This document shows positions 9,178-35,419 of a DNA stretch of 64,000 nt, in pieces. Position 1 is the first letter of the stretch; each line of letters opens with the position of its first letter. The DNA is taken from positions 1,502,001-1,566,000 of the forward strand of contig AP019005.1 of the NCBI GenBank assembly GCA_003945285.1, read 5' to 3'. Both the position numbers and the translations under genes were made by a program. The notes under the pieces are model-generated. The model was given only the letters and a program-made list of their open reading frames with translations. It was not told the origin of the DNA and did no database searches. Source of the DNA: Hydrogenimonas sp. (GTDB lineage: Bacteria; Campylobacterota; Campylobacteria; Campylobacterales; Hydrogenimonadaceae).

Positions 9178-9264
9178 GCGGACGTGGCGGAATTGGTAGA
9201 CGCGCTAGATTCAGGTTCTAGTGGGCATTAGCCCGTGGAGGTTCAAGTCCTCTCGTCCGCACCA
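9178..9264 (+). tRNA. tRNA-Leu (CAG)
   Basis: An 87-base tRNA with a long variable arm and encoded CCA. The acceptor GCGGACG pairs with CGTCCGC, and the loop TTCAGGT between CTAGA and TCTAG gives anticodon CAG. Its last 24 bases are the left attachment site of the integrated element that follows. Confidence 0.97.
9241..9264 (+). repeat. Left attachment site (tRNA-Leu 3' end)
   Basis: The 24 bases from GTTCAAG to CGCACCA end at the CCA of the tRNA and are repeated identically at 13009-13032. Tyrosine integrases commonly use the T-arm and acceptor end of tRNA genes as core sites. Confidence 0.93.
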
Positions 9265-9312
9265 TCGACAATCCCCTAAAAATCGGCCTTCCAAGCACCT
9301 CACCTCTCAATG

Positions 9313-9337
9313 TGTGCAGAAAGTGTGCACTTTTTTA
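9313..9337 (+). repeat. 25-bp direct repeat, copy 1 (possible integrase arm site)
   Basis: Identical to 12881-12905. Internally it holds TGTGCA twice, 11 bases apart, followed by six T. It lies 48 bases inside the left att site and overlaps the integrase stop codon. Position on either side of the core in the circular form suggests arm-type integrase binding sites. Confidence 0.7.
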
Positions 9338-10429: not shown

Positions 10430-10674
10430 GGCCGTTTCCTTTGAATTCTTGAAACGGCACTTCTGGCAATATAGATTTTATTGCCGATGTACTTAAAATC
10501 TACTTCCGGTTCAAACTCCCCGCGCTGAATTCGTGCCCATAATGCCTGACGATTCATTCCCCGATCCCTGGCCACGTCACCAAGGCTGATCCATTCAGGT
10601 ATCGACAAGACCGCCTTTTTGATCTCTTCGATCTCCTGGCGAATTTGAATGAGTAGCTGTCGGTCTTCCATCAT
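10426..10674 (-). CDS. AlpA/excisionase-like helix-turn-helix protein
   Basis: Small protein of 82 residues. An N-terminal helix (QLLIQIRQEIEEIKKAV) is followed by a MerR/AlpA-type helix-turn-helix: EWISLGDVARDRGMNRQALWARIQRG, then a short strand region. Proteins of this kind act as excisionase or as regulator of the integrase. It overlaps the Rep stop upstream and the integrase start downstream by four bases each, so it is co-translated with both. The family assignment rests on the HTH pattern only. Confidence 0.75.
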   Translation of the reverse strand: MMEDRQLLIQIRQEIEEIKKAVLSIPEWISLGDVARDRGMNRQALWARIQRGEFEPEVDFKYIGNKIYIARSAVSRIQRKRP

Positions 10675-11726: not shown

Positions 11727-11937
11727 TGCCTGCCTCCCCCAATGTAACAGCGATTTGGACTTTAATCTTTTCAATTTCGGCAATGATTGATTGGATAAGC
11801 AGATAGTGACCGATAGAAACTTCTTCCGATACGCCATCAAGCTGAAGCATGCTCAAAGCGTTAAGCTTGTAAATGATGTCTTGCAGCTGATCTACCGGCT
11901 CTAATTCTTTTTGAGCATCGTTTTCGATATAATCCAT
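11719..11937 (-). CDS. Small acidic protein of the integrative element
   Basis: Protein of 72 residues, acidic at the N-terminus (MDYIENDAQKELEPVDQLQD), then amphipathic helices. The start has a good RBS (GGAGGGTAACGA) and the stop overlaps the Rep start, so translation is likely coupled. I do not recognise it. The position suggests a replication accessory or copy-control role, which is only inference. Confidence 0.6.
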   Translation of the reverse strand: MDYIENDAQKELEPVDQLQDIIYKLNALSMLQLDGVSEEVSIGHYLLIQSIIAEIEKIKVQIAVTLGEAGND

Positions 11938-12115
11938 TTCGTTACCCTCCAGGTAATATGTCCAGGAAAAGCGGTCAAACTACTTCCTGGATGTGCGCAG
12001 CTAACGGGTCGCTAACGCCCTCGCTGCGCTCGGTTGTTTCCCCAAAGTGTGCTTCGCTTCGCGAATTTCCTTTGTGGCCCTGTTGATCCCTCGGCCGGGC
12101 ATACGGGATGCGCGA

Positions 12116-12388
12116 TCATACACCATAGAACTTGACCGGCGTATTGTTTTCGGTAAAGAACTTGCAACGAACTTGAACGGTTTCACCGATCTTTTCTTTA
12201 TAGGTAGAGACCAGACTATCGGGAATGCTGACGTTGTAGAGTTCAAGCCTCTTTTCCCCGTTTTTCAACTCATTGAGGGATTGAAGCTGGAGTATATGTT
12301 TCCCCGGTCTGACTTCTCCGGTATCTTTATCCTTGAACTCCGGTTTCTGGTACATGGACGCAAGTTGGCCTTCGATGATCACCGTCAT
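12116..12388 (-). CDS. Possible ssDNA-binding protein of the element
   Basis: Protein of 90 residues, predicted to be mostly beta strands: MTVIIEGQLASMYQKPEFKD, HILQLQSLNELKNGEKRLEL, and a short basic/aromatic C-terminus. Size, predicted fold and a place next to an HUH Rep fit a filamentous-phage gene V-like or OB-fold ssDNA-binding protein, but no signature residue proves it. Its start overlaps the end of the upstream RHH gene by four bases. A 178-base spacer follows before the 72-residue gene. Confidence 0.6.
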   Translation of the reverse strand: MTVIIEGQLASMYQKPEFKDKDTGEVRPGKHILQLQSLNELKNGEKRLELYNVSIPDSLVSTYKEKIGETVQVRCKFFTENNTPVKFYGV

Positions 12389-12801
12389 TGTTTCTCCCTC
12401 CTTTTCTTCTCATCCATCAACAAATGCAAGCTGTATTCGGCATCAGCAATTGCTTCTTCTATAAGCTCATAATTCATCAAAGGATTACCAACTTCATCTA
12501 TATCAATGGCTACTTCAACCATCGTTTCACCTTTATCACGCTTTGTGCGAAGATCTTTGATGTATTTTTTTAAATTCTTTATCCTTTTATCCAATTCATC
12601 AAGATCAAGATGAGAAAATTTTCTTCGATTTTCTTCTATGGCTATTTGCATAAAAGATAATAACAATGATGTCATTGTTACACCTCGATTTCTACAAACC
12701 TCTTCAAATTGCTCTTTTAGGCTTACAGGTATTTGCATACTAAATCCTACCTTTTGCTCTGGTCCCTTCTTGGCCAGTTGTACAGCTTTGTCCAAAATCA
12801 T
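12385..12801 (-). CDS. Ribbon-helix-helix protein with coiled-coil tail
   Basis: Protein of ~138 residues. Residues 15-45 (VGFSMQIPVSLKEQFEEVCRN then GVTMTSLLLSFM) match a CopG/Arc ribbon-helix-helix fold. A charged helical region follows (DLDELDKRIKNLKKYIKDLRTK), likely a coiled coil, and the C-terminus is again helical and very basic at the tip. The start at 12801 has AAAGGAG nearby; an upstream in-frame ATG lacks one. First gene of the element's leftward operon, next to a 25-bp repeat, so a regulatory or partition role is plausible. Confidence 0.75.
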   Translation of the reverse strand: MILDKAVQLAKKGPEQKVGFSMQIPVSLKEQFEEVCRNRGVTMTSLLLSFMQIAIEENRRKFSHLDLDELDKRIKNLKKYIKDLRTKRDKGETMVEVAIDIDEVGNPLMNYELIEEAIADAEYSLHLLMDEKKRREKQ

Positions 12802-12880
12802 ACATGCTCCTTTTATTAATATATGATAATTATATACCTTAATCAAATATATGTCAAATATATGCTATTCACATATAAAT

Positions 12881-12905
12881 TGTGCAGAAAGTGTGCACTT
12901 TTTTA
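12881..12905 (+). repeat. 25-bp direct repeat, copy 2 (possible integrase arm site)
   Basis: Identical to 9313-9337, and placed 103 bases inside the right att site. In the excised circle the two copies would lie on either side of the core in the same orientation. Confidence 0.7.
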
Positions 12906-13008
12906 GCGAAAAACATTGACATTTTGACGGTATTTATATTTGCCAGAAGTGCCGTAAAGCACCTATTGAAGGTAGTTGAAAGGGGTTTTCAGGGGCTAAT
13001 GGTTTTGC

Positions 13009-13032
13009 GTTCAAGTCCTCTCGTCCGCACCA
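13009..13032 (+). repeat. Right attachment site
   Basis: Exact copy of the last 24 bases of tRNA-Leu (9241-9264), without the rest of the tRNA gene. Marks the right end of the integrative element and the left limit of accessory island I. Confidence 0.93.
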
Positions 13033-13330: not shown

Positions 13331-14920
13331 ATGGGCGTAATAGGTCTGATAAAAAACAGAAGCGAAAGCGAAACCGGCATCGACAAAAAAGCTTCGTCTG
13401 TTCTGCTGGAGGATAACTTCGAACACTGCTGCATCGTGGGCCAGACAGGCTGCGGCAAGACGACATCCGTCATCAACCCCAACGTCGAGGACCGTATCAA
13501 AAGAGGTCATGCCCTGCTGGTGTTCGACCACAAGGGAAACTATCACACCACCGTAAAGGCGCTCGCGAATCGCCACGGACGCCTTGAAGAGGTAGTGGTG
13601 CTTGGCGAACCACTCGGGGGCAGAATCAACCTTATCCGGCATATGAATCAGCGCGACCTGGAGCAGTTTCTCAGCCTGGTTCTCGGACATAACGACAGAG
13701 ACAGGTTCTGGGAGCATAGCGCCATATCCCTCGCCATCGAAATATGGAAACTTCTCAAAGCCTATGAAACCCTCATCGGCGTAGATGGCAGGAGACTGGG
13801 CGCGGACTTCAGCCAGATGCGTTATCCGGTGACGATCGGATCGATCCACGACATCGCAAAAAATGTACGAAACATTCATGCGTTCGGCGAGCGGATGAGA
13901 GAGTATTTCTACAAAATCTCCGATCCGGAATGCAAAGCGATCGATTACGACAAAAATCCGACGCCAGAGACGAAACAGCACATCGACGACCATTACAGAT
14001 TCGGCCGGGCCTATCTCGAATTCAAAAAAAACATCCTGGAGAACGACACTTACAAAAAAAGGGGTGAGTCCGATGAAAACAGAACCGCCACGAGTATCCT
14101 CATCTGCCTTACCGGCCCGCTGGGCGCACTCGCTTCCAACGAGAGCCTCAACGACCCGGACGGCGAAACGCTGGAAAACCTTCTAAACAGCGGGAAGATC
14201 GTCGTCATGCGCACCAACAGCCTCTCCGACAACGCCATGGCCGCCATTACCAGATCATATTTCGACAGGGCGCTCAAACGGATCGGCGACAGAAAATCTC
14301 CTCCCGTCAGCGTCTTCATCGACGAGGCCCAGAAGGTGCTCAGTCCCCATTTCGACCTGCCGCTGGATACTGTTCGTGAAGCCCGAATCGACGTATTTCT
14401 GGCTTTCCAGTCCATCTCCCTGTTGGAGCTGGCGGTGGGAGAGATAAAGTCGAAGGCGCTGCTCGTCAACATGACGCGCCGCTTCCTTTTCAAAAGCTCC
14501 GAACCTACGGAGGGCGTCGCAACGTCCGGCCTGGAGCGGTTCGAATACTATACAAGCCTGGACGACTACGCCAAGAGCCATCACGCCGCACCCTTTTTCA
14601 TCGAAAAGAGGGAGATATTCGAGGCTGAATACGCCCATCAGCGTCGGCTAGGGCTTTTGGATATCGTTCCACCCCAAGAGCGTCCACAGGAGTGCAAATT
14701 CATACTCTTGCCGGACGATACCCGAATCGGCAACAGTGCGACCATCGTTCTTGAAAACGGCGACAGCCGAAGGGTGAACCTATGGAACGAAGAGAGAGAG
14801 GAGAATGTCTGGACCATGCTCGAAAAGATGTATCGGTACAGAAAGAAAATGGATTCTCGGGAAAACGAAGTCGAAAAAGTCGAACTGTTGTTCCAGGAGG
14901 TTTACCAGGCACGGATATGA
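13331..14920 (+). CDS. TraD/VirD4-like P-loop ATPase, copy 1
   Basis: Protein of 529 residues. The Walker A motif is in CCIVGQTGCGKTTSVINPN (near 40), followed by LVFDHKGNYH, and Walker B is in VSVFIDEAQKVLSP (near 325), then REARIDVFLAFQS. This order matches the nucleotide-binding part of type IV coupling and HerA/FtsK-like DNA-translocating ATPases. There is no N-terminal membrane anchor. No relaxase or secretion genes lie nearby, so a conjugation role is unlikely. A paralogue at 25145-26701 shares the motifs and overall plan. RBS AAGGAGG supports the start. Both copies have the island palindrome promoter. It may pump, scan or load DNA in the island's function; that is inference. Confidence 0.85.
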   Translation: MGVIGLIKNRSESETGIDKKASSVLLEDNFEHCCIVGQTGCGKTTSVINPNVEDRIKRGHALLVFDHKGNYHTTVKALANRHGRLEEVVVLGEPLGGRINLIRHMNQRDLEQFLSLVLGHNDRDRFWEHSAISLAIEIWKLLKAYETLIGVDGRRLGADFSQMRYPVTIGSIHDIAKNVRNIHAFGERMREYFYKISDPECKAIDYDKNPTPETKQHIDDHYRFGRAYLEFKKNILENDTYKKRGESDENRTATSILICLTGPLGALASNESLNDPDGETLENLLNSGKIVVMRTNSLSDNAMAAITRSYFDRALKRIGDRKSPPVSVFIDEAQKVLSPHFDLPLDTVREARIDVFLAFQSISLLELAVGEIKSKALLVNMTRRFLFKSSEPTEGVATSGLERFEYYTSLDDYAKSHHAAPFFIEKREIFEAEYAHQRRLGLLDIVPPQERPQECKFILLPDDTRIGNSATIVLENGDSRRVNLWNEEREENVWTMLEKMYRYRKKMDSRENEVEKVELLFQEVYQARI

Positions 14921-20020: not shown

Positions 20021-20944
20021 TCATCTTTCGGCTTCTTTCACGATACCTTCCGCGAAAGCGGTATCCCGGCCCGTTCGACGCAGGTAGGCCAGAACGGATT
20101 CGAGTGCCCTTCTGCCTTCATCGCCGGCTTTGGCGTAAAGGTCGGCAAATTCCGACTTCGCGTCGACCCCTTCGTGCAGCCGGTAGAGGAAGAGATGGGC
20201 GGGGGCGTAATTTTTCATGGCCGCCAGCAGTTCGTACCTGCCGTAATCGAAGGTGTCGATGAAGGCAAACGTCCGTTCCATGGCACCGAAAGAGCGGGGT
20301 TGCTCCATAAGAGTGCCGATTTTTTCCAGGGTCTCTTCCTCTTTCGTATCGGGAAAGGCGGTCATGAAAAGGCGATTGAGCAGTTTCGCCAATGTGTCGT
20401 CGGTCAATATCCCCCTTTTTTCCAGCAGCACCAGCAGCTTTTCGAATCTTTCCGCTCCGGGGTGGGCTTTTTCGAGCAGGGTCACGGGGTCCGTGCGATT
20501 CATGATGGAATCGTAGAGCCCTTCGTAGGCCAGAAGCATGTCGGCGTACAGGTCGTGTTTGACGTGGCCGTACTCGCTTTCGTAGAAGTCGAGTACATAT
20601 TCGAAAAAGCGCGGATCGGGATTCTCCACCGAGGCGATGAAAACCTTCCAATCATGTGGGTAGGTCAAGATGGGAACCAGAAGAAGCGGCAGGCCGCGTT
20701 CGCGCATCGTGCGGCTGAGATCTCCTTTCATCGTCAGGTAGCAGAAAATGTCGCGCGAGACATGCCTGAAAGCTTCGACGAGAAGGTCGTCGTCGTTGCC
20801 CGTTTCTGGCAGCTCCTCCCTCGCTTTCAGGAGTGTCTCCAAATCGTCATTTACAATCGCGTCGCGCAAGAAATCCGTTAACGGTTTCGGAACGTTAATA
20901 GCCTTCTTTGGAGCGGTGATTTGTCTGTCTGTGGTCAGCTTCAT
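20021..20944 (-). CDS. Uncharacterised all-helical protein
   Basis: Protein of ~307 residues that I do not recognise. It appears to be built of repeated helical pairs (LTDFLRDAIVNDDLETLLKA, then several FEYVLDFYES-type segments), somewhat like ankyrin- or HEAT-type solenoids but without a clear consensus. It is acidic and has no signal or membrane segment. The start at 20944 is fixed by GGAGGAT; a frame up to 20989 lacks an RBS. It is downstream of the winged-helix gene (45 bases apart), likely in one unit, and converges with mcrC. Confidence 0.65.
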   Translation of the reverse strand: MKLTTDRQITAPKKAINVPKPLTDFLRDAIVNDDLETLLKAREELPETGNDDDLLVEAFRHVSRDIFCYLTMKGDLSRTMRERGLPLLLVPILTYPHDWKVFIASVENPDPRFFEYVLDFYESEYGHVKHDLYADMLLAYEGLYDSIMNRTDPVTLLEKAHPGAERFEKLLVLLEKRGILTDDTLAKLLNRLFMTAFPDTKEEETLEKIGTLMEQPRSFGAMERTFAFIDTFDYGRYELLAAMKNYAPAHLFLYRLHEGVDAKSEFADLYAKAGDEGRRALESVLAYLRRTGRDTAFAEGIVKEAER

Positions 20945-20989
20945 GCAAGATCCTCCTTCATGGTATCTCTGTCTCCCCGGATACAGCAA

Positions 20990-21667
20990 TCAAAGAAATC
21001 TTTTGAGTTCTTCGATGATATGATCGGACATGGGGATACCTTGTTTTTTCAACTTTTTCATACACTCGTAGCGCTCTTTGTCTCTATTAGTCGAGATCTC
21101 CTCGTCGAACAGTTTTGGACATGCGTTTTTTAGATATTTGGCGAATTTTCGTACATGCTCATGGTTCTTTTCATCTTTCAGTTTTTCATACATGTGCTTC
21201 ACTTTTATCCAGGGAAGATTCCTGTAGAACTCTCCGGCGGAGATGGAAGTGAAGAGGAGTTTGCCCATTCCCTCGACATGCATCTCCTCACACTCAATCA
21301 GCGAGGTTCCTGCGATCCTATCCAGAGCCCAATCGACATAAGATGTGTCGGTTTCCTGTCGAGCCTCTTTGTTCGAGGCGATCGCGGCCAATGAGATAAG
21401 TACGAATTTTTCGTAATCATCTTTTTGCGGTTCCTCTATCTGAATGAAGTATTCTCCGGTCACGGTATCGTTCTTGGCGAGTATGTAGAGTTCGGTCAAT
21501 TCGTCCAGGCGCCTGTTGACAGATATCTTCTCGGCGCGGGTCAGTTTCCTTCCATATTTTTGGGTGAGTTTTTCGTAAATTTCCTTGTTGGTTGTCGTTG
21601 TAGAGCCGTTTTTACGAATTTTCAAAATGATCTCCAAAATTTCTTGCTGTACCGAAAATTTGCTCAT
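20990..21667 (-). CDS. Uncharacterised protein with winged-helix-like N-terminus
   Basis: Protein of 225 residues. The first ~80 residues (VQQEILEIILKIRKNGSTTT, then NKEIYEKLTQKYG and NRRLDELTELYILAK) have the pattern of a winged helix, so it may bind DNA. The remainder is helical and basic with no motif I know. A strong RBS (GGAGAG) precedes the ATG. The palindrome promoter P3 points at it from 318 bases upstream. It is the best candidate in island I for the protein that binds the palindrome, but nothing in the sequence proves this. Confidence 0.65.
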   Translation of the reverse strand: MSKFSVQQEILEIILKIRKNGSTTTTNKEIYEKLTQKYGRKLTRAEKISVNRRLDELTELYILAKNDTVTGEYFIQIEEPQKDDYEKFVLISLAAIASNKEARQETDTSYVDWALDRIAGTSLIECEEMHVEGMGKLLFTSISAGEFYRNLPWIKVKHMYEKLKDEKNHEHVRKFAKYLKNACPKLFDEEISTNRDKERYECMKKLKKQGIPMSDHIIEELKRFL

Positions 21668-22019: not shown

Positions 22020-22766
22020 TCAGCGGCCGTTCGCATCTCTTATCAGGTGAAGGAAGTCGTACATGCCGTAGAAAATTTCCAATCTGAATCGTTTTGAGAC
22101 GATCCGCCCTTTCTCCTTCAAATCGTCCCAAAGATCGAAAAAAGTGTCGTCCCCGGTACACCCATGACGGTCTTCCCCGATGTAGATCAGGTTGCTTATC
22201 GTGTCGTGCTCGGAGAAATATTTCAATACGTCATGCGCCAAAGGCTCCAGGTAGGGAGGCCACGAGAGGATGATCGTGTCAATCTCGTCGACCAGGTCGT
22301 ACGTTTGTATGAAGTCCTCGAAACTGCAGTCGATAATGTTGTCGAAGAGGGATATGCTATCCACTCCATAAGGACTACCCTCCATGCGGATGCCCAGCAG
22401 CCTGTTTTTCAGATGGGGGAGTCTCTTGGCCAGCATCCCCAGCATCAATCCGCTTCCGGCGCCGACGTCTAGAATGTATTTGCCTGCATCGTGATATTTT
22501 TCTACAAGTTTCTGAATCTTTTCCAAATTTGTATCCAAGGGTAAATAGTAACAGTATTTGCCCGCTATATACATTCTAAAATCTTCGGGCATCGGAAACT
22601 CGCCAAAAGCCCTTACATAGTCCAACAGATCATCGAATTCGCTGAACCCCAATATCTCCAGGTAGTCCATGGAGCTAAATGGATCCAGAGCCGTAAGCCT
22701 GCTGTCTATCAGCTCTTTCTCTTCTTTCGTTATATCTCTGTTTCTGCCTATTATTTTCTCTTTCAT
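22020..22766 (-). CDS. Class I SAM-dependent methyltransferase-like protein
   Basis: Protein of ~248 residues. Motif I of the Rossmann methyltransferase fold is seen in KYILDVGAGSGLMLGMLAKR (near 100), and IDTIILSWPPYLEPL (near 165) stands where the catalytic motif IV is expected. This resembles the N/S/D-PPY motif of amino-group methylases but has Ser-Trp in front; the substrate is unknown. The start at 22766 has GAAAGGAT upstream; longer frames lack an RBS. It lies downstream of the NusG-like gene on the same strand, with a hairpin between, and is probably partly driven by P4. Confidence 0.7.
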   Translation of the reverse strand: MKEKIIGRNRDITKEEKELIDSRLTALDPFSSMDYLEILGFSEFDDLLDYVRAFGEFPMPEDFRMYIAGKYCYYLPLDTNLEKIQKLVEKYHDAGKYILDVGAGSGLMLGMLAKRLPHLKNRLLGIRMEGSPYGVDSISLFDNIIDCSFEDFIQTYDLVDEIDTIILSWPPYLEPLAHDVLKYFSEHDTISNLIYIGEDRHGCTGDDTFFDLWDDLKEKGRIVSKRFRLEIFYGMYDFLHLIRDANGR

Positions 22767-22823
22767 TTCGATCCTTTCATGCAATGTAGCTTCAGGGGGT
22801 GCAGGGTGCGGTGAGTCCCTGCC

Positions 22824-22848
22824 AAAGCCTGGGCTCCGCTCAGGCTTT
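22824..22848 (-). terminator. Hairpin between NusG-like and methyltransferase genes
   Basis: An eight-base stem, AAAGCCTG (22824-22831) with CAGGCTTT (22841-22848), and a nine-base loop. It has no clear T-run on the leftward strand, so it may be an attenuator or processing site and not a full terminator. Confidence 0.4.
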
Positions 22849-22875
22849 GCGTAACGCAAGTCGAAGTCTCTCCTC

Positions 22876-23187
22876 TCACAGAAGCGGGGAAGGCTCCTCC
22901 TTTACGAGGCCCAGTTTTACGGCTTCCTCTTCAGGAAGAGGTATCGGGTATCGTGCGTCGCCGAGAATGGCGACGAAACCCGGTACACAGTTTTTCAGAT
23001 CTGTAAAGAGTGCTTTGTACTCTTTTGACGAGGTGTCAACACAGATATAGACGTACCCGGGAATCGGCCCGTTCATCTTGGCATCTATCAATGCGGGATG
23101 ACGATTCATATCGATAAGGTTTTGCAGGCTTTTGACGACTCTCTTCTCATATCTCGGTGCTGTTTGGATGGTGAACCAGTGATTCAT
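22876..23187 (-). CDS. NusG N-terminal-domain-only (NGN) protein
   Basis: Protein of ~103 residues. It starts MNHWFTIQTAPRYEKRVVKSLQN, the typical opening of a NusG NGN domain (W, aromatic, hydrophobic, then YEKRV), continues with GYVYICVDTSSKEY and ends PGFVAILGDARYPIPLPEEE, which matches the NGN ending before the linker. No KOW domain follows, and the frame stops ~13 residues later. NusG paralogues such as RfaH, LoaP or ActX bind RNA polymerase and suppress pausing in specific long operons. A KOW-less form should bind polymerase but not recruit rho or ribosomes. The start at 23187 follows AAAAGGAGC. P4 lies upstream. Confidence 0.8.
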   Translation of the reverse strand: MNHWFTIQTAPRYEKRVVKSLQNLIDMNRHPALIDAKMNGPIPGYVYICVDTSSKEYKALFTDLKNCVPGFVAILGDARYPIPLPEEEAVKLGLVKEEPSPLL

Positions 23188-23268
23188 GGGCGCTCCTTTT
23201 GAAAAATTTGGGCACAGGTGTATAGTGTGTGTTGTAAAATTGAGTGGAATTGAAAAAAAGACTCTGCA

Positions 23269-23300
23269 ATGATAGAGAAGAGTAGTCACAATAACTGTGA
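23269..23300 (-). promoter_or_regulatory. Island palindrome promoter P4 (NusG-like gene)
   Basis: Palindrome TCACAATAACTGTGA (23286-23300). Read leftward, TATCAT follows after 11 bases (complement of 23269-23274), 82 bases before the NusG-like start. In the rightward direction no -10 box is found at this distance. Confidence 0.82.
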
Positions 23301-24698: not shown

Positions 24699-25040
24699 TC
24701 ACGCATCTTTGGTGATGGTTCCGTTTCTATATTTGGCTGTGAGATATTTTCGGAACTTCAAAAGAATGTATCGACGCTTGTCGGTCATAGAACTCCAAGC
24801 CTTTTCGTCCCTTTCGATCTGTGCCATGAATTTAACCAGCGAAACGAAATCCATCTGCATCTCTTTCATCGCTTCAAGGAACGGACTGCGATGGCTGCCC
24901 AGAAGAATTTCGACCTCCTCCAACTCCAGAAGCTTCAAAAACCAAAATTTATCAAGCCAATGTTTTTGATGGGAAGATGGAACTTTCGAAAAAAAATCGA
25001 TGATCGACCTGAAACGGTCTCCTCTATTTATAGCTGACAT
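24699..25040 (-). CDS. Uncharacterised small helical protein
   Basis: Protein of ~113 residues that I do not recognise. It is helical and charged with a Trp/Phe-rich stretch (HWLDKFWFLKLLELEEVE) and a basic C-terminus (RRYILLKFRKYLTAKYRN). The end resembles the end of the 225-residue winged-helix protein only in general character. The start at 25040 has AGGAGAAC upstream. It lies 104 bases downstream of the second ATPase on the same strand and is likely in its unit. Confidence 0.6.
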   Translation of the reverse strand: MSAINRGDRFRSIIDFFSKVPSSHQKHWLDKFWFLKLLELEEVEILLGSHRSPFLEAMKEMQMDFVSLVKFMAQIERDEKAWSSMTDKRRYILLKFRKYLTAKYRNGTITKDA

Positions 25041-25144
25041 GAGTTCTCCTTTCACTTTCTGTGCTCTATCATGCACCTACCCTGTTTTGTTTTTCAATAG
25101 AGTCGTGTCGCGACAGAGCATTACGCTTACATCCGATCTGTTTT

Positions 25145-26701
25145 TTACGCACCGGCCAGCATTTCGTTGATTTCACTCAGCAAATCTTTTTCATTATCCC
25201 CGCTCGATCTCTCCTCTCCATTGCCTATGGCTTCCAAATCGATCGAAATATCGATAAACTCCACCAACATGTTTTTCCCGTCTTCAAACCTCAAGTGGAT
25301 AAAGTCGTTCTCATAATGTTTGGGGAAATAGACAAATATAAATCTTTCATCGATCTCTTTATCCAGCAGATACCTGTCGAATATTCCCCTGCTCTTCTGG
25401 TAGGACCATTCGGCTTCGAAAAGCTCCTCTTTTGTGAGAAAGAGGGGCTCTGCACGGTACTTCTCTCTGTAACCGTCCATATTGGTCAGGTATTCGAAGT
25501 CCTCCAGGTCCTCTGTTTCAACCCCGTCGAAGGACTGGTCGCTTTTATATACCAGTTTCGTGGTCAGGTTGGCATGCAGAGATTCGTACCCGTCACTTCC
25601 GAGTCTCTCCCGAATCAGTGACTGGCTCTGAAAAGCCATGAATACGTCCACTTTCGCTTCACGCATCGTATCGATCGGAATTTCCAGCTCCTTGTCCAGA
25701 ACCTTCTGCGCCTCGTCGATAAAAACCGACACAGGCTTTTTAAACGGCAACAGGAAACGCTCTTTGAGATTTTCGAATATGGAGTGCGTCAAAAACTGCA
25801 GTGCCGCTTCGGCCAGTCCGGTAGTATTCAATATTACGATCTTTCCCTCGTTCAGTTCATCGACAATATCTGCCTCCGCAGAGTTGAACATGTCGTGTTT
25901 TCCGACAATGGCAAGCGTATCGATGCATGTATAGATCGACGAGAAAGTGGTATACCTCGTCGTATCTACATTTTTATATTGCGTGTGCGCTTTGGAGATC
26001 TTGTCTATGTGTCTGATGAGATCGACAAACCTTTTCTGCGCAAAATCATCCACACTTCCACTCTCCGACAGATTTTTGTATTGCTCCAGCAGGTGTCTCT
26101 TGAGTGAATCGTATCCGTTTACATACGATTTGATAGCGGCGAGAGAGGGGATGGCATCCAGAACTCCTTTTATCGTCGGAGGGTTTGCATAATCGGTCTC
26201 ACCGTCACGTATCGTAAAATCCATCTCTTTTCCGATCTCCCCGAGAGTGCATTGAAGTCTTTCGATCTTTCTATGCAGTTCGAATATAGGCATCAAGATA
26301 TTCAATGCACTCCGCTCCCAGTATTTGTCATCTTTTTTCATTCCCATGATTTTGGCCAACATATTCTCTATCTCACCAAGCGACATCTTTTCCACGATGT
26401 TGACTTTTTTGCCCCATGGTACGCCGATCATCGTTACATCATCAAGTCTGCCGTACTTTTTGGCGAGGGCTTTGACCTGCGCGTGCTGGTTGCCTTTGTA
26501 ATCATATACGAGTATCCCGTGCCCCTCGGAAATTCTCTCTTCGATATTGGGCAGTATCGCCGAACTCGTCTTTCCGCAGCCTGTCTGACCTACGATGGCA
26601 CAGTGGGTGAAGTTCTCCGCGACAAGCGCCTTCTTTGACTTCACCACCCGCTTTTCGCTTTCGTTCTTCGTTGTTGTTTGAAGAATACCTATTTTTGACA
26701 T
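25145..26701 (-). CDS. TraD/VirD4-like P-loop ATPase, copy 2
   Basis: Protein of ~518 residues, paralogous over its whole length to the product of 13331-14920. Shared landmarks are the Walker A region CAIVGQTGCGKTSSAILPN, LVYDYKGNQHAQVKALAKKYGR, the Walker B region VSVFIDEAQKVLDKELEIP and REAKVDVFMAFQSQSL. The C-terminus differs and ends with an acidic helix. The start at 26701 is preceded by AAGGAGTGA; a longer frame to 26749 would run through the palindrome and is unlikely. There is no membrane anchor, relaxase or secretion partner. The presence of two diverged copies at both ends of the island suggests a hetero-oligomer or two substrate-specific motors; this is inference. Confidence 0.85.
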   Translation of the reverse strand: MSKIGILQTTTKNESEKRVVKSKKALVAENFTHCAIVGQTGCGKTSSAILPNIEERISEGHGILVYDYKGNQHAQVKALAKKYGRLDDVTMIGVPWGKKVNIVEKMSLGEIENMLAKIMGMKKDDKYWERSALNILMPIFELHRKIERLQCTLGEIGKEMDFTIRDGETDYANPPTIKGVLDAIPSLAAIKSYVNGYDSLKRHLLEQYKNLSESGSVDDFAQKRFVDLIRHIDKISKAHTQYKNVDTTRYTTFSSIYTCIDTLAIVGKHDMFNSAEADIVDELNEGKIVILNTTGLAEAALQFLTHSIFENLKERFLLPFKKPVSVFIDEAQKVLDKELEIPIDTMREAKVDVFMAFQSQSLIRERLGSDGYESLHANLTTKLVYKSDQSFDGVETEDLEDFEYLTNMDGYREKYRAEPLFLTKEELFEAEWSYQKSRGIFDRYLLDKEIDERFIFVYFPKHYENDFIHLRFEDGKNMLVEFIDISIDLEAIGNGEERSSGDNEKDLLSEINEMLAGA

Positions 26702-26728
26702 ATTCACTCCTTTCCGATGAATTGGGAA

Positions 26729-26777
26729 ATTGTGGCATATGATGCTCACACTAATTGTGATGATCTGTCGATATCAT
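26729..26777. promoter_or_regulatory. Bidirectional island palindrome promoter P5
   Basis: Palindrome TCACACTAATTGTGA (26746-26760). To the right TATCAT (26772-26777) begins 12 bases after its end, toward clpP; to the left CACAAT (complement of 26729-26734) stands at the same distance, toward ATPase 2. Confidence 0.82.
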
Positions 26778-26813
26778 TCGTCTGCATTTCATCAAATAAA
26801 AAGGAGTTTCCAG

Positions 26814-27407
26814 ATGGCATTCATCCCTACAATCGTAGACACCGAAGGAAAAAGAGAGTACGCAACCGACCTTTTCTCCCGGCTTCTCAAAGACAGAATT
26901 GTGCTCGTGCATCAACCGATCGATTCGAATCTCGCTTCCACTGTAGTATCGCAGCTTCTCTATCTCGATAAAATGTCGGACGAACCCATTTACATATATA
27001 TCTCTTCTCCCGGAGGAGAGGTGATGGCGGGTTTCGAGATTATCGATATCATGAATCTCGTCAAATCGCCGGTGCATACCGTCGCAATGGGTATGGTCGC
27101 ATCGATGGCCTCGATTCTGCTTTGCAACGGTGAAAAGAGGTATATACTTCCAAACGCACAGGTCATGCTTCACCAACCGCTCGGCGGTGTGCAGGGACAG
27201 GCAAGCGATATCGAAATCACGGCCAAGCAGATTCTGAAGATAAAATCGAAGCTGAACGAAATACTCTCGGCAAAAACGGGAAAAAGCATCAAGACAATTG
27301 AAAACGTAACGGACCGGGACAGCTATTTCGATGCCCGTGAAGCTCTCGATTTCGGCCTTGTCGACGAAATACTCGACGGACGGGACCATTCGTGCGCATC
27401 GGCGTAA
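26814..27407 (+). CDS. ClpP-type serine protease paralogue
   Basis: Protein of 197 residues with the ClpP catalytic triad: Ser in AMGMVASMASILL (near 102), His in VMLHQPLGGVQGQ (near 127), Asp in ENVTDRDSYFDAREALDFG (near 176). The hallmark IYIYISSPGGEVMAG is also present. It should form a tetradecameric chamber fed by a Clp ATPase, but no such ATPase gene is adjacent. Compared with housekeeping ClpP, the segment around the active Ser (GMVASMAS) is unusual, and it sits in an accessory island under P5, so it is probably a second, specialised ClpP. RBS AAGGAG precedes the ATG. Confidence 0.9.
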   Translation: MAFIPTIVDTEGKREYATDLFSRLLKDRIVLVHQPIDSNLASTVVSQLLYLDKMSDEPIYIYISSPGGEVMAGFEIIDIMNLVKSPVHTVAMGMVASMASILLCNGEKRYILPNAQVMLHQPLGGVQGQASDIEITAKQILKIKSKLNEILSAKTGKSIKTIENVTDRDSYFDAREALDFGLVDEILDGRDHSCASA

Positions 27408-27753: not shown

Positions 27754-30588
27754 ATGAATGATTTGTCGTATGCCCCCGGCCAGAGGGCTCTTATCCGCGA
27801 TGCTGAATGGGTGATCCGTCGTGTCGATCTGCTTGCAGATGGCGGGTATCAGCTAACCTGCGAAGGCGTTTCAAATTTTGTCAAGGGGAAAGAGGCGATC
27901 TTTTTAACGAGCTATGAGAAAGAGATTAAAGTGATCGACCCGCCCAAGACAAAGCTCGTCATAGACGACTCTTCATCGTTCGAGCGTTCGCAGCTTTATA
28001 TCGAGAGTCTTTTGCGTGAGCTGGTTCCGACTGATGATAAAATCTACCGTGCCCACAAAGCGGCGATGGATGTGGTGCCTTACCAGTTCGATCCGGCTCT
28101 TCAGGCTCTAAAGCAATCCAGACAGCGAATTTTGATGGGAGATGCCGTAGGACTGGGCAAAACCCTTGAAGCGGGTATCCTGGTAAGCGAACTCATGAAA
28201 AGAGGGCGTGGCAAACGTATTCTTGTCTTGACTGTCAAGAGCATGCTCACCCAGTTTCAAAAGGAGTTCTGGAACAGATTCTCCATTCCTCTGACTCGTC
28301 TCGACTCACAGGGGATTCAAAGGGTGCGCAACCGTATACCGGCCAATATGAACCCGTTTTACTACTACGACAAAGCGATAATCTCCATCGATACCCTCAA
28401 GCAGGAAGCCCTTTACCGCACCTATATCGAGGAGGCCTACTGGGATATCATCGTCATAGACGAAGCCCACAACGTTGCTGATCGCAACAGCAGATCGCGC
28501 AGGGCGGAACTGGCCAAGCTTATAGCCTCCCGTTGCGATTCACTCATTATGCTCTCAGCTACGCCCCATGACGGCAGTGCGAAAAGTTTCGCTTCGCTTC
28601 TAAACCTGCTCGACCCAACAGCCATCGCCGATCCGGAGCACTACACTGCCGATGATTTCAAAGAGAAGGGCCTGGTTATTCGCCGCTTCAAAAAAGATAT
28701 CGCCGATCAGGTCAAAGAGGAGTTCAAACCCCGTAAAATCTTTGTCGCTGAGGGTATGGCGAAGGCAAGCGAAGCAGAAGAGAATGCTTTTGCCATACTC
28801 TCGAAAATCAAACTCCGCACAATCGATGCCAAAAAGCGCAGTGGAAGTGAACTATTTCGCACCACACTCATAAAATCCCTGATGTCCTCGCCTATGGCGT
28901 GTTCGGAGACGATAGAGGAGCGGATCAAAAAGCTTCAAGCGACTGAAGGCGATTTTGAAGAGGATATTGCGGAGCTGGAAGAGCTAAATTCGTCCCTGGC
29001 GGCGATAGGAGCGGAAGAGTTTTCCAAATACCGGAAACTGGTCGATCTCATCAAGCACCGGATAAAATGGAAAAAGAGTGTCACCGACGATCGGTTGGTA
29101 ATATTTACCGAACGTCTGGCGACGATGCGTTTTCTGGCCGAGCATCTCAAGCAGGATTTGAAGCTGAACGATGCCCAGCTGGTTACGCTGCATGGCGCCA
29201 TGCCGGATGTGGAGATCAACCGCATCGTCGAAGATTTCGGTCAGGAAAACTCCAAAGTCCGGGTGCTCGTCGCAACCGATGTAGCCAGCGAAGGGATCAA
29301 CCTCCACTATCTCTCCCACCGTCTATTTCACTTCGACATACCCTGGTCGCTGATGGTTTTTCAGCAGCGGAACGGGCGAATCGACCGTTACGGTCAGGAG
29401 AAAGAGCCGGAGATCTACTATATGCAGACAGCCAGCAGAGATCCGGAGTTCAAAGGGGACAACCGTATCCTCGAAATACTCATCGAAAAAGATAAACAGG
29501 CGGCCGAAAACATAGGAGATCCTTCGGCCTTTATGAATGTGTACGATCCGGAAAAAGAGGAGGCCATCACCGCAGAAGCGATCGCCGAAGGCAAAGATCC
29601 CGAAATCTTTTCCGCCGAACTGGACAGCAATGCGCAAAATTCGGAGTTCGATTTCCTCGCTTTGCTGGAAGAGAGACAAGAAAAGCGTGCAGAGACAGAA
29701 CCTGAAAAGGTCTTCGTCGATATGCCATCTCTCTATCCCGACGATCACCACTACGCCACTGCTGCTTTGAAATATCTGCAAAAAAATGCCAACGGGTATC
29801 TGGAGGTACAGTATGAAGAAGATCGCATCCGCCTTGTCGCTCCCGAAGATCTCAAATATCGTTTCAAAATGCTTCCCAAAGAGATCTGGCCGAAAGACGG
29901 TTATTTTATCCTGAGTCAAAATCGGCAAATTATAGAAAAGGAGATAAAAGAGTCCCGCAAAAACGAATCTGCATGGCCGCAGATCCATTACCTTTGGGAG
30001 CAGCACCCTGTGCTTGAGTGGTTGCGTGACAAACTGCTGAGCAATTTCGACCGCCTCGAAGCACCCCTTTTGCGCCTGCCTACACTGGCGGCTACTGAAA
30101 CACTCTTCATCGTTTCGGGACTTATCCCAAACAAAAAGGCCCAACCGCTCATTCACCATTGGATAGGCGTACTGTTTGTTGACAGGAGGTATTGCAAAAC
30201 TCTCTCCTGGGAGGAGATCGTGGCCAAAAGCGGATTGGGGCGGAAACGCTTCCCAAACCCTGCACAACCTTGCGACACGACGCCATACGAGACACTGCTT
30301 CCCGAAGTCATCGAAGCGGCCAGGGGCTACATGAATGAAGAGTATCGCCGTTTCGACGAAGAGGCAACCCGCCGGCTTCAGAAGCGTTACGAGGAGCTGG
30401 AGAAGCTAAAAAAGAGGCACATGAAGCGCTACAACCTCTTTCATGAAGAGGAGCTGGATCAGAGCAAGGAGGGGCGCCGCATCAAAAAGATATTCGACGA
30501 CTACTGGCGCTGGATGGAGGAGACGATGATTCTCGAAAAAGAGCCATATATCCAGGTGGTAGCCGCACTGATCGGAGAGCAGGCATGA
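27754..30588 (+). CDS. SNF2-family helicase/translocase (DrmD-like)
   Basis: Protein of 944 residues. The SF2/SNF2 motor is in the first ~600: Walker A GDAVGLGKTLEAGILVSELM (near 130), DEAH in IIVIDEAHNVADR (near 235), motif III LIMLSATPHDGS, and the second RecA lobe with VRVLVATDVASEGINLH and QQRNGRIDRYGQ (near 540). This class of SNF2 protein (RapA-like) translocates on duplex DNA and is the DrmD component of class 1 DISARM defence. The C-terminal ~350 residues are a helical domain ending in a coiled coil. It starts the 25-kb rightward array; its stop overlaps the methylase start by four bases. Only a weak RBS (AAGAGA) is seen. Confidence 0.9.
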   Translation: MNDLSYAPGQRALIRDAEWVIRRVDLLADGGYQLTCEGVSNFVKGKEAIFLTSYEKEIKVIDPPKTKLVIDDSSSFERSQLYIESLLRELVPTDDKIYRAHKAAMDVVPYQFDPALQALKQSRQRILMGDAVGLGKTLEAGILVSELMKRGRGKRILVLTVKSMLTQFQKEFWNRFSIPLTRLDSQGIQRVRNRIPANMNPFYYYDKAIISIDTLKQEALYRTYIEEAYWDIIVIDEAHNVADRNSRSRRAELAKLIASRCDSLIMLSATPHDGSAKSFASLLNLLDPTAIADPEHYTADDFKEKGLVIRRFKKDIADQVKEEFKPRKIFVAEGMAKASEAEENAFAILSKIKLRTIDAKKRSGSELFRTTLIKSLMSSPMACSETIEERIKKLQATEGDFEEDIAELEELNSSLAAIGAEEFSKYRKLVDLIKHRIKWKKSVTDDRLVIFTERLATMRFLAEHLKQDLKLNDAQLVTLHGAMPDVEINRIVEDFGQENSKVRVLVATDVASEGINLHYLSHRLFHFDIPWSLMVFQQRNGRIDRYGQEKEPEIYYMQTASRDPEFKGDNRILEILIEKDKQAAENIGDPSAFMNVYDPEKEEAITAEAIAEGKDPEIFSAELDSNAQNSEFDFLALLEERQEKRAETEPEKVFVDMPSLYPDDHHYATAALKYLQKNANGYLEVQYEEDRIRLVAPEDLKYRFKMLPKEIWPKDGYFILSQNRQIIEKEIKESRKNESAWPQIHYLWEQHPVLEWLRDKLLSNFDRLEAPLLRLPTLAATETLFIVSGLIPNKKAQPLIHHWIGVLFVDRRYCKTLSWEEIVAKSGLGRKRFPNPAQPCDTTPYETLLPEVIEAARGYMNEEYRRFDEEATRRLQKRYEELEKLKKRHMKRYNLFHEEELDQSKEGRRIKKIFDDYWRWMEETMILEKEPYIQVVAALIGEQA

Positions 30589-33500
30589 GTCTTGTCGGTA
30601 TTATCAATGAAAATGAATTCTACACCTCACACTATCTAAGCGAAATCTTTGAAAAGGATATCAAAGAGCGTATTGATATCTGGAGTGCCAAAGCCCAAGA
30701 GGATGAACGCCATATACCCCCCTATAAAGAGTTGCGCTCTATGGCGGGTGACTATTTCGCTATGCTCGACAAACTACGCAAAAAGCATCTGACGACCCCG
30801 GAAAAGCTGGAACTTTCGCGGGCGTTCATTCAGCGGTTACTTTGGGTGCTGGGGTATGAGACGCAGCCGGAGAGAGAAGAGCTAGAAGCCGGTTTTGTGC
30901 CGCTTCTGTGCCGCATCGACCGTGCAGACCACTCCCCGCTGCTCTGGATTCTTGAGAGCCACTGCTCTGAGCCGTGTGATGTGCTCAAAAGCGTACCCAT
31001 AGAGGATCAGTTCGGCCCCCTTGAAGATGGTATAGAGGCGGAGAACTACGATGAAATCATCACCTCCCATATCTTCAGCCTCGAAGAGCCACCACGCTGG
31101 GTAATGCTGGTCTCCGCCTGGCAGATCGTACTTATCGATCGCGCCAAATGGGCACAGAAGCGCTTTTTGCGTTTTGACCTCGAAGAGATCTTCGGGCGCA
31201 AAGAGGAGGCCACCATAAAAGCCGTCACAGCGCTCCTGCACGTCGACTCTTTGGCGCCGGCCGACGGTATCAGCCTGCTCGATACCCTGGATGAGAACTC
31301 CCATAAACACGCTTTCGGCGTCACGGAAGATCTCAAATATGCCCTGCGTGAAGCGATCGAACTGCTGGCCAACGAAGCGCTCCGTTACGCCAAAGAGCAA
31401 CGTCCCGAACTGCTGGACACTCCCGATCTCGATACGGTGCTCAGCCGCGAAAGCCTGCGCTACATGTACCGCCTGCTTTTTATCTTCTACATCGAGTCGC
31501 GTCCGGAGCTAGGTTATGTGCCCATCCGATCTGCCGCCTATTTGAAAGGGTACTCCCTGGAGAACCTTCGCGATCTGGAGTTGATGCCGCTGGTGAGCGA
31601 CCAGGATAAAAACGGCTACTTCTTCGACGACTCCATCCGCCTGCTTTTCGATATGATCTACCATGGACGAAGCTACACCCATCGGCAAAACGGAAGGGAG
31701 CTGTTCGAAATCTCTCCTCTGCGCTCCCACCTTTTCGATTCGGACCATACCCCTCTGCTCGATAGCGTCAAACTGCGCAACCATGTCTGGCAGGCGATAA
31801 TCCGCAGCCTTTCACTCTCGAGGCCGGGCAACGGCAAAAAGGGGCGCGGACGCATAAGCTACGCCAATCTCGGCATCAACCAGCTCGGCGCGGTCTACGA
31901 GGCGCTGTTGAGCTACAAAGGCTTCATCGCCCGCGAAACCCTCTACGAGGTCAAAAAAGCCGGCACCCATCCCACACCGCTGGAGAACGCCTACTTCGTC
32001 ACCGAATCGCAGCTCGCCGACTACAAAGAGGAGGAGCGCGTCTTCGACAGTGAAGGAAAACTGGTGCGCTACCCCGCCGGCACCTTCATCTACCGCCTGG
32101 CTGGGCGGGACCGCGAAAAGTCCGCCTCCTACTATACCCCCGAAGTGCTGACCCGCAGCCTGGTCAAATACGCTCTCAAAGAGCTCTTGCAAGATAAGAG
32201 TGCCGACGAGATTTTGCAGATAACGGTCTGTGAGCCGGCGATGGGGAGCGCCGCCTTTTTGAATGAAGCCATCAACCAGCTGAGTGAAGCCTACCTTCAG
32301 CGCAAACAGATCGAAACGGGTGAACGCATCTCTCATGACAAATACATTTTGGAGCGCCAGAAGGTCAAGATGTACCTGGCGGACAACAACGTCTTCGGGG
32401 TGGACCTGAACCCTACCGCCGTGGAACTCGCGGAGATCTCACTCTGGCTCAACGCACTCTTTGCCGATGAGAACGAAAGCTTCATCCCATGGTTCGGCCT
32501 GCAGCTTGTCAACGGCAACTCATTGATCGGAGCAAGAAGAGAAGTGTATGAAATCTCTGCCTTGAAAGCCAAAAACAAAGAATTGCTCTGGTACAAAGAT
32601 GCTCCCAGGCGACTCTCTCCCAAAAGTCTCTGGCTGCCAAAAAAGCGAAAAACCCGCACACAGGCGCAAGAAGGGGGTTCACTCTTCGACGATCATACGA
32701 AACTGCCGCCGGAGAGCGTCGTAGAAGAGCCGGAACAAAAGAGCGCGGGGCGCAAAGTGGAGAGTGAGGTGTACCACTTCCTGCTGGGCGACAAGGCGAT
32801 GGCCGACTACAGCGACAAAGTGGTCAAAACCCTTAAAAAAGAGCAGATCGAGACCATCAAAAACCGGCAAAAAAATTTTATCAAGCCCTACAGCGACCGG
32901 GAGATCGAGATTTTGCTCGCACTCTCCAGCTCCATCGACAAACTCTGGCAGGAGCATACCCGCCACCAGCACGAGATGCGCAAAAAGACCACAGATCCCC
33001 TCAAGGTCTGGGGGCAGCCGGGCAGCGAGCGCAAGCTTACCGACCTCAAGTTCAAGGACACGGTGCTGCAAAAAGAGCGAAACTCCCTATCGGTCAAAAG
33101 CTCCTCTCCCTACCGGCGGCTCAAGATGGTGATGGACTACTGGTGCGCACTCTGGTTCTGGCCCATCGACGAGGCGGACAAGCTCCCAACACGCGCGCAG
33201 TTTTTTGAAGATATCTCCCGTCTGGTGGACAAACGCGGCGATATATTGATGGATCTGGACAAAGATCTTTTCAGCGAAACGATGGACGAGGAGGAGATTC
33301 GCCTGCAGCTCGATGAACTGGGCTTTATCGATGTGGATGAGCTGATAGCCAAAAACGAGCGGCTGCAGGTGGTGCAGCGGGTAGCCAAAGCGCAGAAGTT
33401 TCTGCACTGGGAACTGGAGTTTGCCGACATCTTCGCCAAGCGGGGCGGCTTCGACCTGATTCTCGGAAATCCGCCGTGGCTGAAGGTGGAGTGGAACGAA

Positions 33501-34178
33501 GGCGGCATCATGGGCGAGGCCAATCCACTCTTTGAGATACGAAAGTTCAGTGCCAGCAGGCTCAATGAGCTGCGAAGCGAGACTTTTAAGAAGTATCCGA
33601 AACTCTTTAGCGACTATATCGCCGAGTATGAGAGCGCGGAAGCGACGCAAAATTTCCTAAATGCCGCAACCAACTACCCGCTGCTCAAAGGGGTGCAGAC
33701 CAATCTCTACAAATGCTTTCTCCCAACCGCATGGAGAGTAGGCAACAAAAAAGCGGTTACGGGACTGCTGCATCCCGAAGGGGTTTATGACGATCCCAAG
33801 GGCGGAGGACTTAGGAGGGAAATTTACAAGCGGTTGAAGTATCATTTCCAGTTTCAGAATGGTAAAAATCTTTTCCCAATTGCGCATAGAGCAAAATTTA
33901 GTACAAATATCTTTTTCAATGCCAACAAAGAGGTCAATTTTACAACGATCGCCAATCTTTTTTTACCCCAAACCATCGATGCCTCTTTCGAGCACAGCGG
34001 AGAAGGGGCTGTTGGCGGCATCAAAAATGATGAGAACAGGTGGAATATAGAGGGCCACAAACACCGTATCGTCCCCATCACCAAAGAGGAGTTGAAATTT
34101 TTGCAAGACTCTATGACGAAGAGGGTACACATTGGCTCGAAGCGCGCCTGCCCGCCATCCATGCCGTCGAGCTGCTGA
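30585..34178 (+). CDS. Eco57I-type adenine methylase, 5' part of a frameshifted gene
   Basis: The first 1171 or so residues belong to a large N6-adenine methylase of the Eco57I/type IIG kind, like DrmMI of DISARM. Motif I is TVCEPAMGSAAFLNEAI (near 549), VFGVDLNPTAVELAEISLW follows, and catalytic motif IV is FDLILGNPPWLKVEW (near 961). After residue ~1171 the frame runs through ~25 unrelated residues to a stop, while the true continuation lies in another frame (next entry). The break is at a run of five T (34098-34102); six T would restore the frame. No nuclease motif is seen in the first 500 residues. The gene overlaps the SNF2 gene by four bases and should act with it, marking self DNA. Confidence 0.88.
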   Translation: MSLVGIINENEFYTSHYLSEIFEKDIKERIDIWSAKAQEDERHIPPYKELRSMAGDYFAMLDKLRKKHLTTPEKLELSRAFIQRLLWVLGYETQPEREELEAGFVPLLCRIDRADHSPLLWILESHCSEPCDVLKSVPIEDQFGPLEDGIEAENYDEIITSHIFSLEEPPRWVMLVSAWQIVLIDRAKWAQKRFLRFDLEEIFGRKEEATIKAVTALLHVDSLAPADGISLLDTLDENSHKHAFGVTEDLKYALREAIELLANEALRYAKEQRPELLDTPDLDTVLSRESLRYMYRLLFIFYIESRPELGYVPIRSAAYLKGYSLENLRDLELMPLVSDQDKNGYFFDDSIRLLFDMIYHGRSYTHRQNGRELFEISPLRSHLFDSDHTPLLDSVKLRNHVWQAIIRSLSLSRPGNGKKGRGRISYANLGINQLGAVYEALLSYKGFIARETLYEVKKAGTHPTPLENAYFVTESQLADYKEEERVFDSEGKLVRYPAGTFIYRLAGRDREKSASYYTPEVLTRSLVKYALKELLQDKSADEILQITVCEPAMGSAAFLNEAINQLSEAYLQRKQIETGERISHDKYILERQKVKMYLADNNVFGVDLNPTAVELAEISLWLNALFADENESFIPWFGLQLVNGNSLIGARREVYEISALKAKNKELLWYKDAPRRLSPKSLWLPKKRKTRTQAQEGGSLFDDHTKLPPESVVEEPEQKSAGRKVESEVYHFLLGDKAMADYSDKVVKTLKKEQIETIKNRQKNFIKPYSDREIEILLALSSSIDKLWQEHTRHQHEMRKKTTDPLKVWGQPGSERKLTDLKFKDTVLQKERNSLSVKSSSPYRRLKMVMDYWCALWFWPIDEADKLPTRAQFFEDISRLVDKRGDILMDLDKDLFSETMDEEEIRLQLDELGFIDVDELIAKNERLQVVQRVAKAQKFLHWELEFADIFAKRGGFDLILGNPPWLKVEWNEGGIMGEANPLFEIRKFSASRLNELRSETFKKYPKLFSDYIAEYESAEATQNFLNAATNYPLLKGVQTNLYKCFLPTAWRVGNKKAVTGLLHPEGVYDDPKGGGLRREIYKRLKYHFQFQNGKNLFPIAHRAKFSTNIFFNANKEVNFTTIANLFLPQTIDASFEHSGEGAVGGIKNDENRWNIEGHKHRIVPITKEELKFLQDSMTKRVHIGSKRACPPSMPSSC

Positions 34179-35419
34179 GCGTTTTGCGAAAGTTCGCCGA
34201 CTATCCCCGCAGGCTTTCGGATATCAAAGAGGAGTACTACTCAACGGTTATGTTCGATGAGACATATGCGCAAAGAGATGACATTATCAAACGCGAAACC
34301 ACATTTGTCGATTCTCCCGATCGATTGATTCTTTCCGGCCCCCATTTTATGGTGGGAAATCCACTCTACAAAACCCCGAGAAGTGTTTGTACGGAGAAGG
34401 GTCATTACGATGTCATCGACCATACCATCATCCCCGACGACTACCTGCCCCGCACCAACTATGTGCCGCTGGCGGCGGATTATGAAGAGAGAATACCGAC
34501 GGTCGATTTTGGGGAGGGGAGGCGGAAGGTTACGGAGTTTTATCGATATATTCATAGAGCAATGTTGTCGCAAGCAGGAGAAAGAACATTAGTTCCTATC
34601 ATTGGTATAAAAAAATGCGCTCATATAGATTCAATTTTTAGTATCGCTTTCGACAACAATGATGAAATGATTAAATTCTCTTCAACTATGCATTCACTAA
34701 TTTTAGATTTTATTATAAAAACAACAGGAAAATCAAAATTAAGAGGCGACATTACCAAGCATATGCCATTGATAGATTTCGATATAAAATTAAAAAATAG
34801 AACTTTAGTTTTGAATTGTCTCACAATTTACTACGAAGAACTATGGGAGGAACAGTTCAATCCTTCTTTCACCAAAGACCGATGGACCAAACCCGACGAC
34901 CCGCGTCTCAACCAAGACTTTTTCAAAAACCTTACACCACACTGGCAGCGCAATGTCGCGTTGCGTACCGACTACGAGCGCCGTCAGGCGCTGGTGGAGA
35001 TCGATGTATTGGTGGCGCAGGAGCTGGGTTTGAGCCTCGAAGAGCTTAAAACCATCTACCGCATCCAGTTCCCCGTCCTCAAACAAAACGAAGCCGAAAC
35101 CTACTACGACATGAACGGACGCATCGTCTTCACTGTCTCCAAAGGCCTCACAGGCGTAGGACTCCCCAGAAAAGCCCGCAAAACCGACCGCCCCTGCAAA
35201 ATCGTCATCGACGGCATCGAAGAGGAGCGCGTCATAGGCTGGGAGGACATCGCAGACTTCCCCGAAGGCGAGATCCACCAAACCATCACCGACGACACCA
35301 TGCCCGGCGGGCCGATTGAGCGCACCGTCTTTTACAAAGCTCCGTTTGCCAAGTGCGACAGAGAGAAAGATTACGAGATCGCATGGGCGGAGTTTGAGAG
35401 GAGGAAAGCAAAATTATGA
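34040..35419 (+). CDS. Eco57I-type adenine methylase, 3' part (specificity domain)
   Basis: Continuation of the methylase after the frame break; the genuine sequence starts about at ARLYDEEGTHWLEARLPA (34103). It holds a target-recognition region and a C-terminal helical part (NEAETYYDMNGRIVFT, PRKARKTDRPCKIVIDGIEE). With the 5' part the protein would have ~1610 residues. An internal ATG at 34040 opens the frame, but without a good RBS, so separate translation is doubtful. An AT-rich patch (about 34580-34830) lies inside the recognition region and differs from GC-richer flanks. The stop overlaps the next gene by four bases. Confidence 0.8.
   Translation: MEYRGPQTPYRPHHQRGVEIFARLYDEEGTHWLEARLPAIHAVELLSVLRKFADYPRRLSDIKEEYYSTVMFDETYAQRDDIIKRETTFVDSPDRLILSGPHFMVGNPLYKTPRSVCTEKGHYDVIDHTIIPDDYLPRTNYVPLAADYEERIPTVDFGEGRRKVTEFYRYIHRAMLSQAGERTLVPIIGIKKCAHIDSIFSIAFDNNDEMIKFSSTMHSLILDFIIKTTGKSKLRGDITKHMPLIDFDIKLKNRTLVLNCLTIYYEELWEEQFNPSFTKDRWTKPDDPRLNQDFFKNLTPHWQRNVALRTDYERRQALVEIDVLVAQELGLSLEELKTIYRIQFPVLKQNEAETYYDMNGRIVFTVSKGLTGVGLPRKARKTDRPCKIVIDGIEEERVIGWEDIADFPEGEIHQTITDDTMPGGPIERTVFYKAPFAKCDREKDYEIAWAEFERRKAKL

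Follow-up and report, generated by a model that had tools for sequence, protein, structure and literature searches.

An island of defence genes in Hydrogenimonas sp. encodes a NusG paralogue that has an NGN domain and no KOW domain. That single-domain architecture is real. Alignment with ordinary NusG proteins indicates that most of the beta-loop 'mini-domain' is missing from the paralogue too; this leaves a compact, minimal NGN, a feature that goes beyond the earlier note made on this DNA. A natural NGN-only architecture is apparently new to the literature searched, where no description of such a bacterial NusG was found, though protein databases may hold single-domain NGN entries. I take the protein to be a specialised, horizontally acquired elongation factor of the NusG family, cut down to a compact NGN and predicted to bind RNA polymerase, and put the probability of this reading at roughly 0.45. 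If it holds, an NGN-only protein that occurs naturally and lacks most of the beta-loop would be a minimal system for testing what binding to the clamp helices, by itself, achieves in a cell.

An NGN domain and the missing KOW

The gene lies on the minus strand at positions 22876-23187 of the window, by which is meant the whole 64-kb stretch of DNA that was analysed, and its letters spell 103 amino acids and a stop codon. A longer frame is possible from a GTG at 23289; the ATG at 23187 is preceded by AAGGAG, a Shine-Dalgarno sequence read from the letters on the same strand (23193-23198), five nucleotides 5' of the ATG. A promoter scan gave none of the scanned type on the gene's strand.

The earlier note had seen in the protein the beginning and the end of an NGN domain, and profile searches agree. 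The Pfam NusG family (PF02357) matches residues 3-91 (89 residues) at 30.4 bits (E 5.8e-7), above the curated cut-off of 22.2 bits, and a whole-genome search with an NGN profile gives the protein 28.1 bits. An HMM made for this work from 25 housekeeping NGN domains scores it at 18.1 bits, whereas 2000 shuffles of the protein reach 7.4 at most and no other frame in the window exceeds 6.1, the set being 412 stop-to-stop frames of at least 60 amino acids. The protein falls far under the cut-offs of the NCBIfam models for NusG, LoaP and Mycoplasma-type NusG. A sequence search of the PDB returned a weak match to Thermus thermophilus NusG alone (E 0.097), and pairwise BLASTP against E. coli RfaH and NusG gave no meaningful alignments.

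AlphaFold2, run without an alignment, produced a best model with a mean pLDDT of 73.8 and a pTM of 0.63; the other four models reached 70.2, 43.5, 41.4 and 36.8, so that two of the five exceed 70. Strands at residues 2-9, 33-37, 45-51 and 71-77 and helices at 11-26, 57-67 and 86-91 follow one another in the order of an NGN domain (b-a-b-b-a-b-a). Foldseek places complexes containing E. coli NusG at the top of its PDB matches (E 3.4e-5, with modest TM-scores of about 0.5), and VIA-align places NusG/Spt5 NGN chains there (best Z 9.8). Modules of the Lrp/AsnC type also match, up to Z 8.8, and for this reason the NGN fold is not specific by itself. The match in fold is supportive, not exclusive, and it is the match in sequence that decides the protein's identity. 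The earlier note had asked whether a structure would resemble NGN: the one predicted here is NGN-like by AlphaFold2, Foldseek and VIA-align.

It also held that the protein ends before a KOW domain, with the caution that a sequencing error might hide one in another frame. No KOW is seen in the three frames 3' of the stop codon, and with a KOW profile drawn from the same 25 NusG proteins no frame of the 412 in the window exceeds 4.0 bits. Nor is there one elsewhere in the island: PF00467 (KOW) matches the genome at just two places, both outside it, one at 2,023,638 in the housekeeping NusG and the other at 2,054,808 in a 96-aa frame that is presumably ribosomal protein L24. A KOW domain concealed by a frameshift is thereby ruled out.

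What remains of the domain is informative. In the alignment with the 25 housekeeping proteins, an 18-column stretch from strand 2 to the PGYV motif is nearly all absent. The genome's own NusG and the E. coli proteins NusG and RfaH all share Trp4, Pro43, Tyr45 and Pro81 with it. In RfaH, Tyr54 is the counterpart of Tyr45 and Phe56 that of Tyr47, and excerpts of one study assign both RfaH residues to the surface that contacts the clamp helices of RNA polymerase (PMC2871177). The HTT anti-pausing motif of RfaH and its Lys10 are not conserved.

The island and the rarity of the gene

The gene was said to lie inside an island, and the flanks confirm it in a comparison of eight genomes, this one included. 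Here 44.7 kb separate hisD from the gene for an AI-2E permease, whereas the distance in G017 is 1.1 kb, in G012 about 1.4 kb and in G001 3.0 kb; the island is absent from these three relatives. Of the other genomes, G002 and G009 yielded no permease match, and G016 and G005, with the two genes on separate contigs, are uninformative. A tRNA-Leu(CAG) gene (9178-9264, plus strand), the integration site at the island's left end, adjoins hisD in the same three relatives as well. Since the aligned flanks of G012 meet window positions 9264 and 52977, the island extends roughly from 9265 to 52976, about 44 kb of a 2.19-Mb genome in one contig; its left end is the 3' end of the tRNA, and its right end is at or before 52976. 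A search for RNA families between 9000 and 54000 found the tRNA alone.

The defence genes of the island include McrBC-type genes, PsyrTA-like genes and AbiEi/AbiEii, besides genes for a dGTPase, an SNF2 helicase accompanied by a type IIG-like methylase, an Avs/PD-Lambda-4-like protein and two helicases, one DruE-like and one UvrD-type. The type IIG-like restriction-methylase is apparently split over two overlapping frames (30585-34178 and 34040-35419), of which the first covers profile positions 169-1176 and the second 1168-1575, in what appears from the sequence to be a frameshift, either real or a sequencing error. Among the defence genes is also one for a ClpP-like protease (26730-27407; 216.9 bits, under the equivalog cut-off of 308.6). 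Three island ORFs (20021-21667 and 24699-25076) have no convincing family match in the libraries searched, and a neighbouring protein of 225 amino acids has no relatives in viral contigs.

A 3.8-kb integrative element at the island's left edge (9241-13032), with a tyrosine integrase and a phage GPA-type replication protein, is flanked by perfect 24-bp repeats of the tRNA-Leu end (9241-9264 and 13009-13032); in G001 the same tRNA has such a pair of repeats about 2.8 kb apart (L095:1207-4061). Two TraG/VirD4-like ATPases (13331-14920 and 25145-26749) are encoded on opposite strands and are 34% identical, and the second has relatives, at 31-34% identity, on plasmids of the Arcobacter group. For one protein of the island, the closest relatives on plasmids come from Arcobacter and Aliarcobacter.

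A second NGN is a rarity in this phylum. At E 0.001, 394 of 397 genomes at least 90% complete have an NGN match and three have none; the Hydrogenimonas sp. genome alone has two and every other matching genome one, in a count that a very divergent second NGN could escape. The protein has no homologue in the plasmids, genome contigs or viral contigs searched. Among 18 genomes of the family it is found in its own genome only, and 398 genomes of the order offer no confident relative, a 16.7-bit fragment in one of them (G303; residues 14-49, within a 429-aa frame) being taken as chance. With no homologue in the collections searched, selection on the gene cannot be demonstrated.

Downstream on the same strand, at a distance of 109 nucleotides, is the gene for a class I SAM methyltransferase-like protein (22020-22766, where 22766 is a chosen start in an ORF that opens at 22859), possibly co-transcribed with the NGN gene. 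Its relatives are absent from genome contigs and partial, in one record, among plasmids; within the family it is found in its own genome, together with short, stop-containing pieces in G002 and elsewhere in its own genome, which coincide with a dispersed repeat. Relatives so few or so partial make guilt by association unusable. The repeat, REP-like and about 70 bp long, stands between the two genes (22786-22855), one of 47 places in the genome that are 76-100% identical, and forms a strong hairpin (-29.3 kcal/mol, z -2.06). It was considered as a terminator and rejected, being a dispersed repeat with no T run and going uncalled by the scan.

What an NGN domain might do by itself

How might a NusG protein act without its KOW domain? 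Engineered fragments of RfaH and NusG give some guidance. Excerpts of the study already cited report that the NGN domain alone binds polymerase and reduces pausing without recruiting Rho: isolated RfaH-N supports antitermination, Rho sites included, and NusG-N opposes pausing without stimulating Rho (PMC2871177). A review, in the portion available, regards the NGN contacts with the clamp as sufficient for effects on RNA synthesis and the KOW as what decides regulation (PMC7819879).

By analogy, I propose as a plausible mechanism that the island's protein would use its conserved PGYVY surface to bind RNA polymerase at the beta' clamp helices, and there would displace NusG or compete with it. 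Having no KOW, it would neither recruit Rho nor couple polymerase to the ribosome. The genome has a gene for Rho and a separate full NusG, so I infer that a KOW-less NGN seated on the clamp helices would take the Rho-recruiting arm of NusG away from polymerase. Overall, termination by NusG and Rho would decrease in poorly translated genes of the island, and perhaps pausing too. With no KOW to inhibit it, the protein would be constitutively active, and the limit on its action would thus be set by its dose and not by a DNA signal. RfaH-N is described, in the same excerpts, as poorly soluble and independent of ops (PMC2871177); it follows that the present protein would need to be soluble alone and would probably require no sequence signal. 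The loss of most of the beta-loop may have a cost. For RfaH, those excerpts propose contacts of this loop with the DNA fork or the clamp helices, and for the activity of E. coli NusG the size of the mini-domain matters (PMC2871177), so that lacking most of it may weaken anti-pausing.

The proposal can be carried further. The protein might be a dedicated NusG competitor, through which the island constitutively counters silencing: loading on RNA polymerase with no KOW, it would keep NusG and Rho from terminating the large defence operons and might also disturb those phage antitermination complexes that need NusG. I hold this extension to be tentative at best. If it is true, acquired islands have a simple route by which to escape silencing by NusG and Rho.

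Perhaps, instead, the gene is a drifting relic of a two-domain NusG paralogue whose KOW was lost, possibly when the 70-bp repeat arrived past its stop codon. This would make the gene an ordinary one. The repeat does begin just 20 bp past the stop codon, the beta-loop is largely gone as well, and the collections searched hold no homologues by which conservation might be demonstrated. Between the stop and the next gene, however, no remnant of KOW exists in any frame. The reading frame is intact, the ribosome-binding site is good, and the GC content of the three codon positions (0.56/0.37/0.55) is similar to that of the adjacent genes. As for the repeat, its presence at 46 other places makes its presence here nothing special. 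On balance I consider a relic doubtful.

The earlier note had also raised the idea of a phage-type inhibitor of host NusG. So conceived, the protein would be a tool of host takeover, derived from a phage or other mobile element, that masks the clamp helices, blocks host NusG and works with the adjacent methyltransferase. The phage-like character of that neighbour stands, its best matches, partial or distant, being in large phages and archaeal viruses, and a NusG-like antiterminator does exist among phage protein families (phrog_6386, 20.6 bits, E 0.0006). The NGN protein itself, however, has no viral homologue: none in viral contigs, none by fold in BFVD at E 0.001 or less, and, among 50,697 phage records, a single match at E 0.08. 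That match is to a full-length, housekeeping-like NusG (MT837845.1, 5184-5711), in a record labelled 'Bacteriophage sp.' whose other genes look bacterial and which is probably a bacterial contig. The gene's surroundings, moreover, are genes of defence. The idea thus has little to support it, and I judge it unlikely. Still less probable is that the fold has been reused for some role away from RNA polymerase, such as a partner for the methyltransferase. In favour of reuse, identity to known NGN domains is low (19-26%), the beta-loop is lost, and the tyrosine that follows QT in 25 of 25 housekeeping NusG proteins is Ala10 here; against it, the protein keeps an intact PGYV motif where published work places the surface for the clamp helices.

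Comparison with known NusG proteins

The reading of the protein as a specialised elongation factor invites comparison with the rest of its family. With housekeeping NusG it shares the NGN fold, the W-x(3)-Q-T start, the PGYV motif and the P-x-P-L end of the domain. It differs in having no KOW, in missing most of the 18-column beta-loop, in an identity of 21-26% and in its location. A housekeeping NusG is a full-length protein encoded in the order secE-nusG-rplK-rplA, and the genome's own, with 176 amino acids, is found at 2,023,764 beside the genes for L11 and L1 (named from reading their translations); the island gene is shorter and lies outside that operon, away from ribosomal protein genes.

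RfaH and the other specialised paralogues (NusG-SP, such as LoaP and plasmid RfaH) are closer in circumstance, being likewise second NusG-family genes on horizontally acquired DNA, and Tyr45 and Tyr47 occupy the positions of RfaH Tyr54 and Phe56. These proteins end in a KOW, and the island's does not, with the consequence that it has no autoinhibition. No RfaH model matches it at E up to 1, and the LoaP model (NF033641) gives 18.6 bits against a cut-off of 125. The HTT motif was not found in it, nor did an ops element stand out from chance: sites like ops with one mismatch number four in 64 kb, where 2.04 are expected and 14 of 100 shuffles do as well, which is no excess, although recruitment signals of another kind may exist.

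In domain content the protein is the same as the laboratory fragments RfaH-N and NusG-N. Those, however, are engineered products rather than natural genes and retain the beta-loop. The NGN of archaeal Spt5 belongs to a protein that has a KOW as well and pairs with Spt4. This NGN is also of comparable compact size (3lpe_A, 84 amino acids), and VIA-align superimposes it on the model with a Z of 9.4 over 74 residues.
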